Shown piece after piece: positions 14,287 through 28,959 of a stretch of 50,979 bases of DNA. The notes under the pieces are model-generated. The model did no database searches. It was not told the DNA's origin and worked only from the letters and a program-made list of their open reading frames with translations. How positions within the stretch are numbered: position 1 is the stretch's first letter; every line of letters begins with the position of its first letter. Source of the DNA: Thermoplasmata archaeon (lineage in GTDB: Archaea; Thermoplasmatota; Thermoplasmata; Lutacidiplasmatales; UBA184); contig JAKIWS010000009.1 of NCBI GenBank assembly GCA_022749895.1, positions 1 through 50,979 of the forward strand. The letters run 5' to 3'. Made by a program: the position numbers and the translations under genes.

Positions 14287-17200
14287 GTGAGGGGCACCCA
14301 ACGAGCCCGATCCCGAAAGCTCGGAACGTTCGACGGGCGTCGGCGCTGGTCGTCCGCGTCCAGCCTCGCCATCGCGGTCGGGGCCTTCATGGCGCTGCCG
14401 CTCCTCCCCGGGATGGGCGCGGCATCCGCGGCCGCGCCGATCCCGGGGGCGGTGGGCCACACGGGGTCCGATCTCGCGAGCGTGATCCCGCCGTCGGCGG
14501 CCCATCTTGCGGGCACGGATCCGACGCACGAGCCGTTCGTGGACGTAGGGCGGTGGGTAGCCGAGGCCCCGAACGATCGCGGGGGGCTTCCGCTCTCCTC
14601 TCCCAGCGTCGTCGGCCCGAATACCACCTCCGGGCCGTTGGCGGCCGCCGCATCGCCCCGAGCGTCGCCCCGACCCCTCGCGGCCGGGACGATTTCGGGG
14701 AACGTGTTCGACCCCCACTTCGGCACCCCGATCCCGAACGTCAACGTCACGGTTCACCCCCTCGCGGGGGGTTCCTGCATCGGCCTCTGCCTTGCCACGA
14801 CCAACGGTTCGGGGGGGTTCCGGGTCGCCGGCCCGGCCGGCCCGGCGGTCCGTCTCTTCACGCACGTCGACTACATCGACAACCGAAGCTGGACCACGGT
14901 CCCCCTTTCCGGGAATCTCGCCATCGGGTCGATCGACCTGGTGCACGTCGGGTATGCGAAAGGGGTCGTCGAGCTGGACGTACCCGGCACCCCGCCGGCG
15001 ACCAACGTCGGGCTCCAGGCCATCAGTCGGGACGGGCTCATCGCGACGCCGGGATCCGGCACCGCCCCCAACGGGAGCTTCCTGCTCGCCGTGCCCCCGG
15101 TCCCGTCGCGCATCGACCTGACTCCCGGGGGAAATGACTCGCTCGCGAACTTCACCTTCGTCGACGCCGGCGCCTACGCCGTGGTGGACCTCGGCATCCT
15201 GTACATCGAGAACGCGACTCCGCTCCACCTCGCCGCCCGCGACGCCGTGACCGGGGCGACCATAACGCCCGGGCAGGTCCAGGTCTGCTCGCGCGTCAGC
15301 GGGGCGTGCTTTGTCGGGAACGTCGGCCCTCCCGGTCCCGACATCATGAAGGTGTTCCGCCAGGGGTACGTCGTGAACATCACCACCTTACCGGACGTCC
15401 CCAAATCTCCCGCGCTCGGCTACTTCGACGTCGGAACGGTGGAGCTGATGCCCGAAGGGCTCGTGAACCTCACCGTCGGGTTGACCGGGGGACCTCCTCC
15501 GCCCGCGACGTGGACGGTCGGGCCGGGGGTGGGGACGATCGTCGCCTGTTCGCTCGACGGGCTCACGATTCCGAAGACCAACGTGTTGGGACCCTACTGG
15601 AAAGAGACCGACTGCCAGCAGGCCAACTACACGCCCGGGATTCCCGTCACGTTCGCCGCCATGCCGCTCCGCGACATCATCTACATCAGTCCGCTCCCGG
15701 GCACCGCTCCGATCGAGAGCGAGCTCGTCAGCTTCGCGACGTCGCAGTACGAGTGGGGGAACATCACCTGGGTCAACGTGACCGCGGACCGGATGACGAA
15801 CCTCTCTTTTGTGAACATGACCGCCGGGGCGTACGTGGAAGGTCGGGTCGCTCTCGATCCCACCGGGACGCCCACCTCCAACTACACGGTCCGGGTCTGC
15901 TCCACGGACGAACCCCGGTGCATGGGGGGTGGCCCAGGGTCCGCGAGCGATCCCGGCTGCACGACGGGACCCGGCTGGTTCTGCGCGGCGAGCCCCCCGG
16001 GCCCGGTCGAGGTCACGGTCACGGGGACGAACGGCGGGGTCAACCGCACGTGGGCGTTCGTCGACCCGCGCTGCTGCCATCTCGCGGGCCACCCGGTCAA
16101 CGTCGGGTGGGTCAACCTCACCGCGGTCGGGAGGGGCATTGGGAGCGTGAGCGGTCACGTCTACGTCGTGACCCCCGGCGGCGGACCCCAGGAACCGGCC
16201 GCGGGCCTTTTCGCCGAGGTCGAGGTCTGCGCGGCCGGACCCGCGCCGGCCGGGTCCCAGTGCCAGGCAACGTTCGCGAACAACACGACCGGCGCCTTCA
16301 ACCTGACCGCGCAGGTCGGCTGGGACCGGGTGAGCGTCTACCCCCAGTTCTACGAGACCAACTCGACGTGGATCGACGTGACGGGCGCCAACTCGACCGG
16401 CGACATCTATCTCGCCCCCTCGGCGGTGCTGGCGGGGCAGGTGCTGGTCGCCGGGGGCGGGGGGGCGATCGAGGCCCACGTTGCCGCGTGTCCGATCGGC
16501 CAAGTGGCGCTCTGCCGCCCGGTCGGGCCCAACGGGTTGACCGGCACGAACGGGCAGTACAGCGGTTCCGTTCGCGGCGGCCCGCTCCCGTGGGGGACGT
16601 ACGAGGTGATCGCCACGGCCTCGGGCTACGCCGCGAACTGGAGCTGGGTGAATACCTCGGCCGGAGCGCTGTCGGTCGTCCCGCCGATCACCTTGTCCCC
16701 GATCGGGAACGGACGGCCCGCCGGGTCACCGGGGCTGCCGAGGGGGTTACCGGCCCCGCTCGCCGGCTCGGGCGGATCCTGGGTCGCGGGTCGGGCCGTG
16801 GATGCCCGCCGCGGTTACGGCGTCGCCGGCGCGGAGGTCGTGGGCTGCCCGATCCTCGGACTCAGCTGCGTCGTCTTCACGGATGTCACGAACACGGGCG
16901 GAGGGTTCAACGGCACCGTCCCGCCCGGGGCGTACCAACTTTTCGTCAACGCGACGACCTACGCGCCCACGACGGTGTTCCTCAACGCGACCGCGGGCGG
17001 GACGGCGTCGGTCGGGGTCGTCGACCTGACGCCACTCCCCGCCGTCCTCGGCCGGGTCGCGATCGGTCCGTGGGCATCGTTGACGACCGTGGGCGGCCTC
17101 GGGCCGGACCGCGCGACCGTGCTGCTCTGCGCGAACTCGGGCGCGCCGTGCGGACCGCTCTCGTTCGTCGATACCGGCGGCTACTTCAACGTGAGCGGCC

Positions 17201-20061
17201 CCGCGGGGATCGCCGATTCCCTCCAGATCTCCGGGGGAGGCGGCGGTCCGGCCGGTGGGGATGGCACCGCCCCCTTCGGGTTCAGCCCGCTCGGGGTCAG
17301 CGTCGACGTGACGAAGAACCTCACGCAGCTCCCCACGAGCGGACCCACGGCGGTCGCTCTCGCCATCTTCGGGGGGATCGCCGGGACGGAGCGGGACGGC
17401 GGGACGTGGAACGCCAGCCGGAGCGAGGCCCGCGACCCGATCCATTTCGGCTACCTCGCCTCCTCGGTGGCGGGGGTCCTCAGTGGGGCGACCGCATGCA
17501 CCCCCGGGGGAGGCGGAAACTACCTGTTCCTAGAGCCCCGTGGCGGATCGCGAACGACGATCGAAGGCCTGGGGGGCGGGTTCCTGACGGCGAACGTGAC
17601 GATCCCGGGGTCGGTCGTCGCCGGGTCGATCGTCGGCGACCGGAACGTCACCGAGCCGCATTTCGGCTGGGTACGCGTCGGCGTCCGGGACGCGACGACC
17701 GGCGCGCCCATCCCCTTCGCCGACGTGACCGTCCTCCGGAGCGATCTGGCCAACGGTACGAACTGGGTCGGTGCCGGACAGGCCGATGGAGCGGGCGTCG
17801 CCAATGTCACGGCACCGCCGGGGACGGACCTCGTCCTGATCACCAGCCGGCCGTACTACCTCGGGACCAACTTCACCGCGACGGTGACGGAAAGCACAAC
17901 GTCCCCGCTCGGCCGCGTGAACTTGACCGAGAATCCGTTTCCGGACACGGGGGTCTTCTTCCGCACGTACCAGGTCAACACCGTCAACGCGACCCCGGTG
18001 CTCGGCGCGGTCGACCGTTTCACGGGGGCGCCGCTCCCCAGCGCGCGCGTGATCATCGTCGACGCCAACGGGGGCATCATCAACGGGCCGACGACCACGA
18101 ACGACCTGGGGCAGTTCTTCGCCTTCGGCCCGCCCCCGAACGACATCGAGACGCTGGTCGTCCAGATGCCCGCCTACGCCCCGTTCCGCACCTCGCTCAA
18201 CCTGAGCCACGGCGGGTCGGTCACCCTCCCGTACACGAACTTGACCGGCGACGGGATCGTCGCGGGGAGCGTCGTCGCCTATCCGGGCCGGGTCCCGGTC
18301 GCCAACGTGTCGGTGCAGGTCTGCCCCGCGAACCTTCCGATCTGTCCGTCCACGGGGGCGACGAACGGCGCCGGGGCGTTCGCCATCGCCGCGCCCCCCG
18401 GCCTCGACGTGGTGACCGTCATCGCCAACGGTTACGCGACGAACTACACGGTCGCCGTGAACCTTCCGACCGATACGTGGGTCACCATCGGGCACATCCC
18501 GGTCTTCACGTACGCCACGGTCACGGGACGGCTCATCGGCATCCCGACGGGCCAGGCGATCGTGAACGGCAACATCTCGGTCTGCTCCTCGCTCGGATTC
18601 CCGAGCGGACCGTGCTTCATCGACGTCGCGAGCGCGGCGAACGGCTCCTTCTCGCTGCCGGCCCCCCCGGGGTCGTTCGTCATCCGGTTCTCCGCCCCGC
18701 TCTACAACAGTTCGTTCCTCAACCTCTCGATCCTCCCGGGCGCCAAGATCAACGTGGGGGTCCAGTTCCTCTTCGCGTACGGCTCGATCTACGGGACCGT
18801 CGACGCGCTCCCGAACGGCGTCCCCATCGCGGGGGCGGCGATCCGGGCCTGCGCGACCTGGGCCGGTGGACCGTGCGCGGGGCTCGTGATCTCGAACGCG
18901 ACCGGTCGGTTCGCCGTAAATTCCCCGCCGGGCCCGGTCCAGCTCGACGTCTCGGCGGCGGGGTTCAACGACAACTTCACGACGGTCGTCGTGCCGGTCG
19001 GCGGCACGGCGTTCCTTCCGTCGGTCAACCTGACGCCGCTCCCGTCGACCCTCCCGATCCCGCTCGTGGGCACGGTCGTCACCGCCGCCGACCCAACGCA
19101 CGGCCTCGCGGGCGCCGTGATCTCCGCGCTCCAGTTCGGCACGGCGGTCGCCTCCGCGCAGTCGAACGCGACCGGTGGGTTCAGCCTCACGCTCTACTAC
19201 GGCACGTTCACGCTGATCGCGACGGAGTCAGGGTACCATCCGAGCGCGACGACCGTTATCCTTCACGCGCCGCGCTTCGGTCTCTTCCTCCTGCTCGCCA
19301 CGATGACGTACCCGGTGCAGGGGGTGGTGCGGGACCGGTCGAACGGGGCGGCAGTCCCGAACGCGCGGATCCTCGGGGGCGGACTCCCCGGGGTGACGAC
19401 CGACGCCGCCGGCTACTTCACGCTCGCCTTGCCGAACGGCAGCTACGCGCTCACGGCCGAAGGACCGAACGCTTCCGCGGTGGCGTACAGCTGGGTCAAC
19501 TTCACCATCCAGGTGAACGGCGCGCCGGTCCGGCACGACCTCACGCTCAACCCGTCGGGCTACGCGGTCCTCGGGCTCGTCGTGGATGCGCTGACCGGGC
19601 TCCCCCTCTCGGGCGCCAGCGTGGCGGTGGTCGGGAACTCCTCGACGGGCGTCCTGGTACGCACCGCGCAACTCTCGCACGTCGACGGGAGGTTCGGCGT
19701 CACGCTGCCCCCGGGGTCGTATGTGCTGACGACGAACGCCCGCGGCTACGGGTCGAACCGAACCGTGCTCGTGCTCAATGCGGCCCCCGCGCCGGTCACG
19801 GTGGCGCTCGACCCCCTGAGCGCGCTCGTGCGGGGCAGCGCCGCCTGGGAACGGTGGATCGTGCCCGTCGCCGGGGGGACCGTGGCGGTGGCGCTCGCCG
19901 TCGCGGTCGTGTACTGGGTGTGGCGCCGGCGACGCGGACCGACGTTCTCGGTCCCCGCCCAGGAGGCTCGGTCGGGCGGGACGGGCTACCGCTTCGAGGC
20001 GCCCCCGGGCGAGGTGTTGCCGCCGCCGCTTCCCCCGACCGACGACGCTACGTCACGATGA
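14287..20061 (+). CDS. Giant secreted repeat protein, carboxypeptidase-regulatory-like domains, C-terminal anchor
   Basis: The 1924-residue protein begins with a basic segment and signal peptide (about residues 20-48). It continues with many beta-sandwich modules resembling carboxypeptidase regulatory-like/transthyretin-like domains, recognisable by the recurring G-x-F-x-hydrophobic-x-x-P-P-G turn. It ends with one membrane helix (WIVPVAGGTVAVALAVAVV), an RRRRG stop-transfer signal and a cytoplasmic proline-rich tail. At least nine modules carry a Cys pair five to ten residues apart after a V-x-V strand (for example VQVCSRVSGACF, VAACPIGQVALC, VLLCANSGAPC); the last third lacks them. Asn-x-Ser/Thr sites are abundant. 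Start is GTG 14287, about 28 bases after a weak TATA (GGTTCATC). It is likely a surface adhesin or envelope component; no enzyme motif is visible. Confidence 0.9.
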   Translation: MRGTQRARSRKLGTFDGRRRWSSASSLAIAVGAFMALPLLPGMGAASAAAPIPGAVGHTGSDLASVIPPSAAHLAGTDPTHEPFVDVGRWVAEAPNDRGGLPLSSPSVVGPNTTSGPLAAAASPRASPRPLAAGTISGNVFDPHFGTPIPNVNVTVHPLAGGSCIGLCLATTNGSGGFRVAGPAGPAVRLFTHVDYIDNRSWTTVPLSGNLAIGSIDLVHVGYAKGVVELDVPGTPPATNVGLQAISRDGLIATPGSGTAPNGSFLLAVPPVPSRIDLTPGGNDSLANFTFVDAGAYAVVDLGILYIENATPLHLAARDAVTGATITPGQVQVCSRVSGACFVGNVGPPGPDIMKVFRQGYVVNITTLPDVPKSPALGYFDVGTVELMPEGLVNLTVGLTGGPPPPATWTVGPGVGTIVACSLDGLTIPKTNVLGPYWKETDCQQANYTPGIPVTFAAMPLRDIIYISPLPGTAPIESELVSFATSQYEWGNITWVNVTADRMTNLSFVNMTAGAYVEGRVALDPTGTPTSNYTVRVCSTDEPRCMGGGPGSASDPGCTTGPGWFCAASPPGPVEVTVTGTNGGVNRTWAFVDPRCCHLAGHPVNVGWVNLTAVGRGIGSVSGHVYVVTPGGGPQEPAAGLFAEVEVCAAGPAPAGSQCQATFANNTTGAFNLTAQVGWDRVSVYPQFYETNSTWIDVTGANSTGDIYLAPSAVLAGQVLVAGGGGAIEAHVAACPIGQVALCRPVGPNGLTGTNGQYSGSVRGGPLPWGTYEVIATASGYAANWSWVNTSAGALSVVPPITLSPIGNGRPAGSPGLPRGLPAPLAGSGGSWVAGRAVDARRGYGVAGAEVVGCPILGLSCVVFTDVTNTGGGFNGTVPPGAYQLFVNATTYAPTTVFLNATAGGTASVGVVDLTPLPAVLGRVAIGPWASLTTVGGLGPDRATVLLCANSGAPCGPLSFVDTGGYFNVSGPAGIADSLQISGGGGGPAGGDGTAPFGFSPLGVSVDVTKNLTQLPTSGPTAVALAIFGGIAGTERDGGTWNASRSEARDPIHFGYLASSVAGVLSGATACTPGGGGNYLFLEPRGGSRTTIEGLGGGFLTANVTIPGSVVAGSIVGDRNVTEPHFGWVRVGVRDATTGAPIPFADVTVLRSDLANGTNWVGAGQADGAGVANVTAPPGTDLVLITSRPYYLGTNFTATVTESTTSPLGRVNLTENPFPDTGVFFRTYQVNTVNATPVLGAVDRFTGAPLPSARVIIVDANGGIINGPTTTNDLGQFFAFGPPPNDIETLVVQMPAYAPFRTSLNLSHGGSVTLPYTNLTGDGIVAGSVVAYPGRVPVANVSVQVCPANLPICPSTGATNGAGAFAIAAPPGLDVVTVIANGYATNYTVAVNLPTDTWVTIGHIPVFTYATVTGRLIGIPTGQAIVNGNISVCSSLGFPSGPCFIDVASAANGSFSLPAPPGSFVIRFSAPLYNSSFLNLSILPGAKINVGVQFLFAYGSIYGTVDALPNGVPIAGAAIRACATWAGGPCAGLVISNATGRFAVNSPPGPVQLDVSAAGFNDNFTTVVVPVGGTAFLPSVNLTPLPSTLPIPLVGTVVTAADPTHGLAGAVISALQFGTAVASAQSNATGGFSLTLYYGTFTLIATESGYHPSATTVILHAPRFGLFLLLATMTYPVQGVVRDRSNGAAVPNARILGGGLPGVTTDAAGYFTLALPNGSYALTAEGPNASAVAYSWVNFTIQVNGAPVRHDLTLNPSGYAVLGLVVDALTGLPLSGASVAVVGNSSTGVLVRTAQLSHVDGRFGVTLPPGSYVLTTNARGYGSNRTVLVLNAAPAPVTVALDPLSALVRGSAAWERWIVPVAGGTVAVALAVAVVYWVWRRRRGPTFSVPAQEARSGGTGYRFEAPPGEVLPPPLPPTDDATSR

Positions 20062-20509
20062 GGAACGAGCGCATGATCCCGTGGAACGTGCCGCAGAATT
20101 CCGTGCACTGGATCAGATACTGAGTCCCCGCCGCGACGTGCGGCACCGTGAAGGAGAAGACGTTCGACCGGGCCGGGATCGCATCGACGCGCACGCCGAG
20201 CCCCGGGATGTTGAACGAGTGCACCACATCGGTGCCGGTGACATTCACCTGCACGGTCGACCCGGGGGCGGCCCATAACGCCCCACCGGAAACGGTGTTC
20301 GTCGTCGCGTCATACGTCGAGTTGAAGCACGTGTGGTTGACCGGGTAGCAGAACTGCCAGAACCACTGGTGGCCGACGACGACCACGATCTCGTCCGGGT
20401 GGGCGGGGATCGCGTCGACGTGGTAGAGCAACACCGTGGAGTAGACGGAGACTCCCACGATCAGGGCGACCGTGAGGAGGGTCCAGCCAAGCTCGAGCCG
20501 GTTAACCAT
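20048..20509 (-). CDS. coxB: Cytochrome oxidase subunit II, second helix plus CuA domain (split gene, part 2)
   Basis: This carries the electron-entry CuA centre of the heme-copper oxidase. It begins with one membrane helix (LELGWTLLTVALIVGVSVYST) that matches the second helix of ordinary subunit II, then the cupredoxin domain: GHQWFWQF, DVVHSFNIPGLGVRVDAIP and the full CuA set His97, Cys135, Glu137, Cys139, His143 and Met146 (CTEFCGTFHGIM). An extra Cys pair (CYPVNHTC) follows the first strand. The first helix of subunit II is missing and is encoded by the preceding gene, which overlaps by eight bases (ATGGTTAA). It is convergent with the giant repeat gene, overlapping its end by 14 bases. 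Confidence 0.95.
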   Translation of the reverse strand: MVNRLELGWTLLTVALIVGVSVYSTVLLYHVDAIPAHPDEIVVVVGHQWFWQFCYPVNHTCFNSTYDATTNTVSGGALWAAPGSTVQVNVTGTDVVHSFNIPGLGVRVDAIPARSNVFSFTVPHVAAGTQYLIQCTEFCGTFHGIMRSFLIVT

Positions 20510-20732
20510 ACCGCCGCCCCTTGGTGTGGGGATCTCGGAACTTCCAGAGCGCGTACGCGAGGAAGCCGTAGACGACGACGGCCCCGGCGACGCTGATGAT
20601 GATCATGACCCAGACGAGCGGGCTCGTCTGGTCGAGATTGCTCCCGGCGGCCCGGGCGCCCCCGGCCAGGAAGAGGAGCGCCTCGCCGAGCAGGCTTCCA
20701 AGCGCGAGCTGCCGCCAGGGCGTCGAACGCAC
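20502..20732 (-). CDS. Single-helix subunit equal to the first helix of oxidase subunit II (split gene, part 1)
   Basis: The 76-residue product has an N-terminal hydrophobic stretch that looks like a signal peptide (LALGSLLGEALLFLAGGARA), a short exterior segment, and a membrane helix (VWVMIIISVAGAVVVYGFLAYAL) ending in WKFRDPHTKGRR. That is how helix 1 of a normal subunit II ends before the loop to helix 2, and the next gene starts exactly with helix 2. Its TAA lies inside the eight-base overlap with the downstream ATG, so translation is probably coupled. The GTG start at 20732 falls about 25 bases after a TATA box, consistent with a leaderless message. A natural gene split or a single-base error are the two readings. 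Confidence 0.85.
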   Translation of the reverse strand: MRSTPWRQLALGSLLGEALLFLAGGARAAGSNLDQTSPLVWVMIIISVAGAVVVYGFLAYALWKFRDPHTKGRRYG

Positions 20733-20750
20733 GGACTGTCGGAGGGGACG

Positions 20751-20760
20751 TTTTTCTTAT
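20751..20760 (-). promoter_or_regulatory. TATA box of the split coxB transcript
   Basis: Read on the minus strand this is ATAAGAAAAA, the most A/T-rich run in the gap. It is centred about 25 bases before GTG 20732, so the message would be leaderless. A CGTACGAACC element lies six bases upstream. Confidence 0.65.
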
Positions 20761-20766
20761 GCCCGG

Positions 20767-20776
20767 CGTACGAACC
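20767..20776. promoter_or_regulatory. CGTACGAACC motif upstream of the coxB TATA box
   Basis: The ten-base element sits between coxB and the divergent cupredoxin gene. The same GTACGAAC core occurs twice in front of the tatA-oxidase operon. Its role as a regulator site is inference. Confidence 0.35.
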
Positions 20777-20880
20777 CGCCCGGCCCCCATCCGAGCCGAG
20801 GCCGGGCCGGACCTCCGCTCGGGGACGTACGTACGGAGGGGGTTTGAATCGAACTCACAGTGGACCGCCGCTCGACGCCC

Positions 20881-21561
20881 ATGATCGGCCGCACGTTGGT
20901 CCGTCGTCTCGGGTGGCGGACCGTGAGCGCCGCCCTCGTCGCGTCGATGGTCCTTGTCGCCACGGCGGGGCTCGTCGAAGCGAGCCCATCAGCCCCCCGC
21001 GCCGGGGCGCCCCCCGTCTCTACTTCGGTAACGATCACCGTCGGGAGCGGGTTCACGTTTGATCCGACCAGCTTCCCGGTCAACCCGGGCGACACGGTCA
21101 CCCTCACCTTCGTCCAATCGGACGGAACCCCGCACAACCTGCTCATCGTCGCGGAAGCGAACTACACGTTCCCCTCGGGCGCGGGCACCTCGGTCCTGCT
21201 CGCCTACTTCACCCAGCATCCCCCGCTCGTGAACCTCTCGCTCGGCGCCGCCCCCACGACGGCGACGACCACGTTCATCGCCCCGCACAAGGGGCTCTAC
21301 CAGTTCGTCTGCACGCAATCCGGCCACTTCGCCGCCGGGATGATGGGTTACATGGGGTCCGGCGGGGTCACCATTCCCGGACAGGGGTACAGCGGACCCG
21401 GGGCACCGGTATTCATCATCGGTGGAACGATCGCTGGTCTCGTTCTCCTCGCCATCGTCCTCGCTTTCGTCATCGGCCGTCGACGGGGTTCGATGCACGA
21501 GATGCCCCCCGAGCGACTGGGGTACGCCGAGGGGATATCGGAAGCTACGAAGGGTCCGTAG
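20881..21561 (+). CDS. Membrane-anchored single-domain cupredoxin (blue copper protein)
   Basis: From ATG 20881 the protein has a basic N-terminus and signal peptide (TVSAALVASMVLVATAGLVEA), a single plastocyanin-like domain and a C-terminal membrane helix (VFIIGGTIAGLVLLAIVLAFVIG) followed by RRRG and a cytoplasmic tail. The type 1 copper ligands are all present: His in GTPHNLLIV, then CTQSGHFAAGMMGY supplying Cys, His and Met. An in-frame GTG at 20860 is upstream of the likely transcription start set by GTTTGAAT (20842-20849), so 20881 is preferred. It is divergent from the split oxidase subunit II and is a good candidate electron donor to the oxidase in place of cytochrome c. Confidence 0.92.
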   Translation: MIGRTLVRRLGWRTVSAALVASMVLVATAGLVEASPSAPRAGAPPVSTSVTITVGSGFTFDPTSFPVNPGDTVTLTFVQSDGTPHNLLIVAEANYTFPSGAGTSVLLAYFTQHPPLVNLSLGAAPTTATTTFIAPHKGLYQFVCTQSGHFAAGMMGYMGSGGVTIPGQGYSGPGAPVFIIGGTIAGLVLLAIVLAFVIGRRRGSMHEMPPERLGYAEGISEATKGP

Positions 21562-27273: not shown

Positions 27274-28959
27274 GTGACCGACCTGACGGTCCCGATCGTC
27301 GAGATCGCTCTTGTCGTGGCGCTCGCGGCCTTCGGCCTGGGGATCCTCCAGTACCGCGGCGGGTGGTTCATCCGGGTCGCCCGCCGCTGGCTGTTCACGA
27401 CCGACCATCGGCTGATCGGCCTCATGTACATCACGACCGGCCTCGTGTTCTTCTTCATCGGCGGCATCTACGCGATGCTGATCCGTACCGACCTGGGGCT
27501 GGTCCAGGGTCTCGGGCTGGACCCGCAGACGACGCTCGGGATCACCCCGGACGTCTACTCGACGCTGTTCACGATGCACGGCGTTCTGATGATCTTCATG
27601 TTCATCATGCCGACCTTGGCCGGGTTCGGCAACTTCCTCGTCCCGTCGATGGTCGGCGCGAAGGAGATGGCGCTCCCCCGGATCAACGCCATCGCCTTCT
27701 GGATGCTCCCGCCGGCGGGCGTCATCCTCCTCTTTTCCAACGCCTACGCGGGGTGGACCGGGTACGTTCCGCTCTCGACGGAATCGTTCGCCCCGAACAG
27801 CCACGGCATCGACCTCTGGGTCCTGGGCCTCCACATCCTCTCGATCTCGTCGATGCTGGGCGCGCTCAACTTCCTCGTCACGATCATCAAGCACCGGGCG
27901 CCGGGCGTGGAATACTGGAACATGCCGCTCTTCGTCTGGGCGACGCTCATCAACAGCGTTCTGCTCCTTCTCGCGCTCCCGTCGCTCTCGGTCGCGCTCA
28001 CCATGGTGCTCGCCGACCGGAACCTGGGGACGCACATCCTCGCGGCCGCGAACGGGACCCCGCTCGGCGGGGCGCTCCTCTACCAGAACATGTTCTGGTT
28101 CTTCGCGCACCCCGAGGTCTACATCATGGTGCTACCCGCGTTCGGGATCGTCTCGACGGTCCTCCCGAAGCTCGCCCGGAAGGACATCTTCGGCTACGCG
28201 GCGATGGCGATCTCGCTCGGCGTCTTCGCGGTGCTCTCCTTCGCCGTCTGGGAGCACCACATGTTCGTGACCGGCATCTCGACGAACGTCCGGTTCGTCT
28301 TCATGCTCTCGACGATGGCGATCGCGGTCCCCTCCGCGATCAAGACGTTCAACTGGGTCGCGACGCTCTGGGGCGGCAAGATCTGGCTCGCCGTCCCGAT
28401 GTGGTTCTGCGTCGCGTTCATCACCGGCTTCGTCATCGGCGGGCTCTCGGGCCTCTTGCTCGCGTCGATCCCGATCGACTACCTGTACCACGCGACCTAC
28501 TTCGTGGTCGCCCACTTCCACTACATCCTGCTCGGCGGGACGCTGATGGCGATCTTCGCCGGGATCTACTTCTACTACCCGATCTGGACGAAACGTTGGT
28601 ACTCCCAGCGGCTCGGCCACGTCCACTTCCTGCTCACGTACGCGGGCGTGAACCTGCTCCTGTTCCCGATGTTCATCCTCGGCGCCGAGGGGATGCCGCG
28701 CCGGGTCTACACCTATCTCCCCACTGCGGATTTCCAGTTCTGGAACCTGATGTCGACGCTCGGGGCGATCATCCTCGGCATCGGGCAGCTCGTCTTCGCG
28801 TTCAACATGGTCTACAGCTACTTCGCCGGGGCGCGGGTCGTCGGCGACCCGTGGGGCGATCCCCTCCCGAGCACGATGCAGGGCCCCGCCCCGGCCGCGA
28901 CGCCCCGCCCGACCCCCGTCGTCCCGCCGATCGGGGCTACGCCGGAACGCAGCGGGTAG
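27274..28959 (+). CDS. coxA: Heme-copper oxidase subunit I (aa3-type)
   Basis: This is the catalytic subunit that reduces oxygen to water and pumps protons. About 12 helices are visible. Heme a ligands are the His in [12 protein letters not shown] and one in [11 protein letters not shown]; heme a3 uses the other His of VAHFHY. CuB ligands are the His in [15 protein letters not shown] and the pair in [10 protein letters not shown]. The Glu in HPEVY and the Lys in [15 protein letters not shown] mark an A-type enzyme with D and K channels. The usual GHPEV is AHPEV. The C-terminus has a Pro/Ala tail. GTG 27274 is the start. It is followed at once by ctaA and ctaB; its subunit II is the split gene on the other strand. 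Confidence 0.97.

Follow-up and report, generated by a model that had tools for sequence, protein, structure and literature searches.

An A-family oxidase subunit II probably made as two polypeptides from overlapping genes in Thermoplasmata

In the B-type (ba3) oxidases of Thermus thermophilus and Aquifex aeolicus, the gene for a small one-helix protein, IIa, lies just upstream of the gene for a one-helix CuA subunit. According to excerpts of two papers, IIa and II together replace the two-helix subunit II, the IIa helix runs opposite to helix 1 of A-type enzymes, and either fission or fusion has been proposed as the origin of the pair (PMC3128077, PMC3141039). Mitochondrial cox2 is split into COX2A and COX2B in chlorophycean algae, alveolates and Campsomeris wasps, and the two proteins are thought to re-associate; in Campsomeris, the cut lies after helix 2 and leaves the CuA part with no membrane helix (excerpts of PMC5374615). 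The window analyzed here is a stretch of 50,979 nucleotides from a Thermoplasmata archaeon (Lutacidiplasmatales; UBA184), comprising positions 1 to 50,979 of contig JAKIWS010000009.1 in assembly GCA_022749895.1. On its minus strand are two overlapping genes: gene 1, for a small protein with one membrane helix (here also termed IIa), and gene 2, for a protein that opens with helix 2 of an oxidase subunit II and continues through the CuA domain (IIb).

Taken in aggregate, the data make it very likely that these genes specify an A-family oxidase subunit II made as two polypeptides, by fission of a loop, translational coupling of the two genes, and re-pairing of the products beside subunit I.

Two genes for two parts of subunit II

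The features of the two genes are:

20502..20732, minus strand: gene 1, encoding IIa, the split helix-1 protein of 76 amino acids (GTG start at 20732, TAA stop), with a signal-like stretch and one transmembrane helix
20048..20509, minus strand: gene 2, encoding IIb, 153 amino acids from the ATG, with helix 2 and the CuA cupredoxin domain
20502..20509, minus strand: the 8-nucleotide overlap ATGGTTAA, which holds the gene 2 start codon and the gene 1 stop codon
20541..20636, minus strand: predicted helix 1, IIa residues 33-64, followed by a basic KFRDP... segment (AlphaFold2 model of IIa)
20417..20500, minus strand: helix 2, IIb residues 4-31, the opening element of gene 2 (model secondary structure)
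20072..20221, minus strand: the CuA ligand region, H97 ... C135, E137, C139, H143 and M146 (invariant in an alignment of 33 sequences)

The coordinates, frames, overlap and translations of both open reading frames are as the initial annotation gave them. In translation, IIa (20502-20732, minus strand) ends in KFRDPHTKGRRYG directly before its stop, and the N-terminal residues of IIb are MVNRLELGWTLL.

IIb matches PF00116 (Pfam, expectation value (E) 2.2e-16), and its residues 3-152 correspond to positions 54-191 of the 202 positions in the NCBI CoxB model (E 4.4e-29). Its alignment with solved subunits II starts at helix 2, with profile positions 5-147 on 1ar1_B 106-257. The side chains H97, C135, E137, C139, H143 and M146 are each invariant across the 33 aligned sequences, which include that of the window, and we take them to be the CuA ligands. 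Within helix 2, E6, W9, T10 and L11 are invariant in the same alignment. The structural model of IIb contains one helix and a cupredoxin domain, with a predicted local distance difference test (pLDDT) score of 92.5. Its first Foldseek match is 7au3_B, followed by 1ar1_B (Paracoccus), with 5weh_H (Rhodobacter) also among the first matches; all are A-type subunits II. The PF00116 match, invariant ligands and fold matches together place a CuA cupredoxin domain with a full ligand set in IIb, bearing out the earlier suggestion that gene 2 begins at helix 2 and carries the complete domain. The two N-terminal transmembrane helices, which a CoxB carries in one chain, are here in separate open reading frames, and both frames fall below the whole-protein cut-off of TIGR02866 (147.7 bits; IIa 19.7, IIb 101.5). 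The partner subunit I, encoded by coxA at 27274-28959, belongs to family A.

The missing helix corresponds to IIa. Residues 33-68 align to positions 6-41 of the 202-position CoxB model (E 4.8e-4), the top NCBIfam hit for the window's protein, and 24 of 31 scanned IIa proteins match this model at E up to 0.1. A IIa profile built from 66 sequences scores 52.1 against the first-helix region of seven continuous CoxB proteins from two sister families. In control comparisons, 15 block-shuffled versions of that region score no higher than 21.9, its reversed form scores 15.0, and the remaining reversed or helix-2 profiles stay at or below 16.5. Because CoxB model positions 6-41 and 54-191 are complementary, and because the profile score is far above its controls, the sequences indicate that IIa and IIb are two complementary parts of one ancestral CoxB.

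The AlphaFold2 model of IIa has helical stretches at residues 5-25 and 33-64. The second is the better predicted, with block pLDDT values of 90 and 95 at residues 41-60. A segment rich in arginine and lysine follows the helix at the end of all 31 aligned IIa proteins, which predicts, on charge only, that the C-terminus lies inside. Gene 1 is under purifying selection (median ratio of nonsynonymous to synonymous substitution rates, dN/dS, 0.26; maximum 1.04; 75 non-independent pairs at 80-99% identity), and its identity by codon position is 0.70, 0.78 and 0.60. Together, conservation and purifying selection reject gene 1 as a spurious small open reading frame. The commonest Pfam match of IIa is LapA_dom (20 of 31 proteins, best E 4.6e-5), which is probably a generic one-helix match; neither it nor the other generic one-helix families matched was accepted as a homologue.

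Recurrence and distribution of the split

Gene 2 is present in 62 of 78 searched genomes of the genus, and in 23 of the 25 that are at least 90% complete. Every one of the 62 has the split with the same 8-nucleotide overlap and a stop, 61 of them with ATG; the statement on stops rests on these 62 genomes, each accounted for. They contribute 63 loci, 60 of which fit the pattern ATGGNTRR. The three that do not fit are L066 (ATGGATAG), L037 (ACGGTTAG) and L062, which lies on another contig of the L066 genome.

A second, named collection, largely overlapping the first, holds 65 loci: one Bacillus (L202, left out) and 64 others, of which 61 are titled Thermoplasmata archaeon (including UBA184), one Candidatus Lutacidiplasma silvani, one Euryarchaeota archaeon and one 'bacterium'. 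The same junction is found in 58 of these 64 loci; by kind, the junctions are 56 with ATG, two with ACG, four of a differently joined type and two contig ends. A junction pattern that demands the stop but leaves one base free (T or C), for ATG or ACG, is fitted by 140 loci. These give 72 distinct junctions, 69 with ATG and three with ACG; the counts cover only that form, and the rows are related, so they are not independent events. Left out were L102, which is truncated ahead of the junction, L191 and L196, where the contig stops within the gene, as well as L122 and the Bacillus locus L202.

Beyond the genus, PF00116 was searched in 250 genomes drawn from the class, of which 102 have a match (weaker second matches were left aside). 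Sixteen genomes of the same family outside the genus have a match: 12 are split, one is truncated, and three, from g24, carry a continuous gene of another type. The split is thus present in all 12 readable loci of this type, from five other genera of the family. Six have the same overlap (g25, 4/4 loci; g29, 2/2 readable). The remainder are joined differently: two g27 loci by an ATGA overlap and two g28 loci by a GTGA overlap (4 nucleotides), g28 locus L099 across a 4-nucleotide gap, and g26 locus L067 with an in-frame stop 6 nucleotides before the ATG. In g26, g27 and g28, gene 2 encodes an extra N-terminal stretch before helix 2, which is proline/alanine-rich in g28. The three g24 loci (L086, L097, L101) carry, in place of the split form, a continuous three-helix subunit II with a CMELCG motif.

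The initial annotation had proposed looking for the two-gene arrangement in related genomes. With g24's different subunit II set apart, no single continuous frame appears among the family's loci of this type that were read. With 62 of 62 genus genomes and 12 of 12 readable loci of other genera split, the arrangement is natural and is not a sequencing error, and the comparison identifies the split as a trait of the family.

The sister families f25 and f26 have one continuous coxB gene (seven loci). In a tree of 29 subunit I sequences, the split family is recovered with 99/99 support and sits beside f25/f26 at 94/94; its two subclades match the two junction types. Because the split family sits beside these continuous relatives, a single fission at its base, among A-family relatives, is the favored history. 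The tree is rooted at its midpoint and long branches meet in it, so that the depth of the Thermoplasmatales-type clade is uncertain, and its 29 sequences do not discriminate between fission and fusion.

A similar arrangement occurs in the Thermoplasmatales-type families f19, f31 and f11. Here, each of the 19 loci looked at has a one-helix CuA gene with a small membrane-protein gene immediately before it, and the two, as read, overlap in all but L113; GGAGG stands ahead of the junction in 9 of the 18 loci shown. Against the IIa profile, the small open reading frame scores 31.0-32.5, versus at most 20.0 for controls. Unlike IIa, however, its product has two predicted helices, and 0 of 17 such proteins match the CoxB model. 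Its profile matches continuous CoxB on its first helix in one comparison and on its second in another, and gave nothing convincing against solved structures. The accompanying subunit I clade is distant from that of the split family and lacks the HPEV glutamate. The Thermoplasmatales-type gene is therefore only a possible homologue of IIa, and a class-wide split that includes this gene is no more than a lead, as the profile and CoxB-model tests give insufficient support for homology.

The junction and its possible readings

At the junction, the ATG of gene 2 forces TAT or CAT in gene 1; TAT is used in 50 and CAT in 10 of 60 loci. TAT is otherwise rare among tyrosine codons, accounting for 34 of 452 in gene 2 of the 60 loci and for 16 of 148 in 11 genes of the window. 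In 69 of the 72 distinct junctions, T stands where C would have kept the amino acid unchanged. The codon counts thus indicate that the ATG is kept against codon preference, as expected of a functional start codon but not of a site where ribosomes only shift frame. Since both tyrosine and histidine codons are used, the constraint follows the ATG rather than the amino acid. All three stop codons are used at this one position to end gene 1 (TAA 43, TAG 11, TGA 6; 60 loci).

If subunit II is made as two chains, the process likely involves: breakage of an ancestral two-helix coxB within the short cytoplasmic loop between the helices; coupled output of genes 1 and 2, through ribosomes that end gene 1 and restart at the ATG eight bases back; and re-assembly of the halves. 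IIa would provide the targeting region and helix 1, placing its basic C-terminus inside. IIb would start in the cytoplasm, insert via helix 2, and present the CuA domain outside. A cut in the cytoplasmic loop would allow both halves to keep their topology, as judged from charge. The two helices could then pack side by side against subunit I like those of an ordinary subunit II, at an approximate 1:1 ratio and with the original polarity kept. In this sense the 'assembly solution' for a subunit II proposed in the initial annotation would hold.

Several observations weigh against this account. ACG replaces ATG at three of the 72 distinct junctions (L037, L184, L185), which plain reinitiation explains poorly; in L185, no in-frame table-11 start codon lies between the junction and the nearest stop upstream. 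These junctions possibly reflect initiation at ACG or inside helix 2, or a +1 frameshift. Many loci have only a weak Shine-Dalgarno-like sequence ahead of gene 2, or none: 9 of 60 lack any match of at least 3 bases, and 21 of 60 have a match of 3 bases. Gene 2 is missing from two of the 25 near-complete genus genomes. For IIa itself, the model is only of moderate confidence (mean pLDDT 73.7 overall), the profile finds no convincing chain among solved structures (best E 0.43), and Pfam COX2_TM is absent among the 25 families shown of 46 matched by the 31 proteins; one continuous CoxB relative does match COX2_TM (E 1.1e-11).

The principal rival is programmed +1 frameshifting at GGN-TRR at the end of gene 1, by which some or all subunit II would be one two-helix chain. 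It would accommodate the fixed junction geometry of the 62 genus genomes as well as the ACG junctions, including L185, and, by inspection only, the protein joined on read-through would resemble an ordinary CoxB loop. Bacterial prfB has a similar layout. Even so, frameshifting is distinctly improbable. It does not predict the ATG retained in 69 of 72 distinct junctions despite codon preference. Gene 1 has GGT, GGA or GGC as its final sense codon, and a +1 shift would bring up GTT, GAT or GCT, codons on which tRNA-Gly should re-pair poorly. One g26 and one g28 locus are plain stop-then-start arrangements (6 and 4 nucleotides) that could not be bridged on the g1 pattern, and four others have 4-nucleotide overlaps. 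The Thermoplasmatales-type loci with a small gene in this position likewise show mostly ATGA or GTGA overlaps, half of those shown (9/18) with GGAGG ahead.

Very unlikely is that gene 1 encodes an unrelated one-helix accessory subunit, or a coupling leader, before a one-helix subunit II. The absence of a visible COX2_TM match and the poor conservation of the N-terminal half of IIa in the alignment would suit such a role, as would the position of IIa in B-type oxidases, which according to an excerpt of PMC3128077 is the same. In contrast, among NCBIfam models the window's IIa matches CoxB best, at its first helix, 24 of 31 members match that model, the profile score is far above controls, and the helix ends in a KFR-type basic motif resembling that of the continuous f25 relatives. 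The probability that the split stems from decay to a pseudogene, or from a single wrong base in the sequencing or assembly of a continuous coxB, is negligible. A single base would restore the frame here, and the assembly is a draft of 106 contigs. However, the one-base indel that the initial annotation had considered is contradicted by recurrence of the junction in all 62 genus genomes carrying gene 2, in two further genera and in 58 of 64 loci of the named collection, and by purifying selection on gene 1. Both genes are conserved, and the genome comparison refutes indel and pseudogene alike.

Genomic setting and comparison with known systems

Features surrounding the two genes are:

20749..20774, minus strand: upstream element, TTCGTACGC (20774-20766) followed by TATA-like ATAAGAAAAACG (20760-20749), the latter starting 28 nucleotides before the GTG
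20860..21561, plus strand: divergent cupredoxin gene (PF00127, E 5.7e-8)
27274..28959, plus strand: coxA, family A with an HPEV motif, the only subunit I found in the assembly (83% complete)

The leaderless promoter suggested earlier is consistent with the genus comparison. A TATA-like element lies upstream of gene 1 in 60 of 60 genus loci, for the kinds on a scripted element list compiled from those same loci. An in-frame GTG (49) or ATG (3) stands 26-34 nucleotides past the start of the element in 52 of 60 loci, as against 56 of 360 shifted control windows; eight loci do not fit this spacing. The gene 1 message would therefore be of leaderless type with a GTG start. The copy of TTCGTACGC at 20766-20774 is exact, but with one mismatch allowed the window holds 13 copies of this sequence against 13.3 expected, which is no enrichment, so no regulon is claimed. 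If the TATA-like element sets the start, gene 1 of L034 and L036 apparently encodes only 48 residues without the signal-like segment, making the helix the retained part of IIa.

The 127-bp gap from gene 1 to the divergent cupredoxin (20733-20859) has CGTACG-type motifs close to both starts, and the GTG of the cupredoxin gene may be leaderless too. Of 50 related loci whose sequence reaches far enough, 46 show a divergent cupredoxin-like residue pattern, and the window's cupredoxin is a possible electron donor to CuA. At the other side, a plus-strand gene (14287-20061) encodes a 1924-residue protein with several carboxypeptidase-regulatory-like domains and ends convergently inside the last 14 nucleotides of gene 2. 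Between gene 1 and coxA lie the cupredoxin, a MazE/AbrB-type domain gene, Tat genes (named by reading open reading frames), a Rieske protein and cytochrome b; past coxA are CtaA-like and UbiA-family (CtaB-like) genes. Much the same setting has been described in Lutacidiplasmatales (excerpts of PMC9287336).

The best Protein Data Bank matches of coxA are aa3-type subunits I, and its FAHPEV motif contains the glutamate. HPEV is also present in all seven subunits I checked among the 12 split loci of other genera. Elsewhere in the class, five of five f25/f26 subunits I looked at (L203-L207) have an A2-like YSHPAVY motif, and ten from f19/f31 (L221-L230) have GHPIVY-type motifs without glutamate, although one f19 subunit I is still best matched by aa3-type chains. 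These motifs are hard to reconcile with the published statement, in excerpts, that all Thermoplasmatota coxA are A1 (PMC9287336; PMC5155288 for Cuniculiplasma). Weaker second subunit I matches in three family genomes (G069:C68, G229:C30, G135:C47; E about 1e-61 to 1e-64, frames over 900 amino acids) perhaps represent a second oxidase type.

An A-family enzyme whose separate helix 1 has kept its original sequence and polarity, beside continuous sister lineages, would be a natural test case for fission, and also for the re-assembly of a membrane subunit from coupled halves. Formation of the two-helix subunit II by IIa/II fusion, or of IIa by fission, has been raised for B-type enzymes (excerpt of PMC3128077). 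It is unlikely, though a little less so than frameshifting, that separate encoding of the first helix is widespread and possibly ancient among archaeal A-family oxidases, the usual subunit II then being the product of fusion and the split form not one of fission. If true, the split family and the Thermoplasmatales-type clade may preserve a stage between B-type IIa plus II and the fused two-helix form found in bacteria and mitochondria. Unassigned membrane proteins have been reported beside complex IV in Lutacidiplasmatales, the order indicated by the named relatives, and IIa may account for one of them (excerpts of PMC9287336).

Among the open-access papers searched (subscription papers and supplements lying outside this scope), no description of a prokaryotic A-type subunit II split between its helices was recognized, in agreement with the initial annotation, which knew of no archaeal A-type enzyme of this kind. 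Excerpts of PMC9287336, PMC5155288, PMC3750248, PMC8239418 and PMC9038741 do not mention one. On this basis, a prokaryotic A-type subunit II divided in this way appears to be new, separate-helix and split subunits II being already known elsewhere.

The comparison with IIa of Thermus, drawn in the initial annotation, stands as an analogy only: here too, a separate small one-helix gene lies directly upstream of subunit II. It does not extend to the type of protein, as the Thermus helix has the opposite orientation and is part of a B-type enzyme (excerpts of PMC3141039 and PMC3128077). The subunit I here is of family A and not B-type (ba3), which sets the arrangement apart from the B-type IIa already known. 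In sequence, IIa resembles A-type helix 1, and its polarity is predicted, by charge only, to be A-type rather than inverted. The PX1-3GT/A motif described ahead of the B-type helix (excerpt of PMC3128077) is, by eye, absent from the IIa consensus.

As in split mitochondrial cox2, fission of subunit II here would have yielded two complementary proteins. In contrast to Campsomeris, the cut lies between helix 1 and helix 2, the genes overlap, and gene 2 opens with helix 2; the solved chains 9f5x_2B and 9f5x_2C, which cover IIb profile positions 4-55 and 80-147, are likewise cut after helix 2. The continuous CoxB proteins of the sister families f25/f26 belong to the same class and share similar helix-1 and helix-2 sequences and the CuA domain, but are encoded by one gene and accompany an A2-like subunit I.
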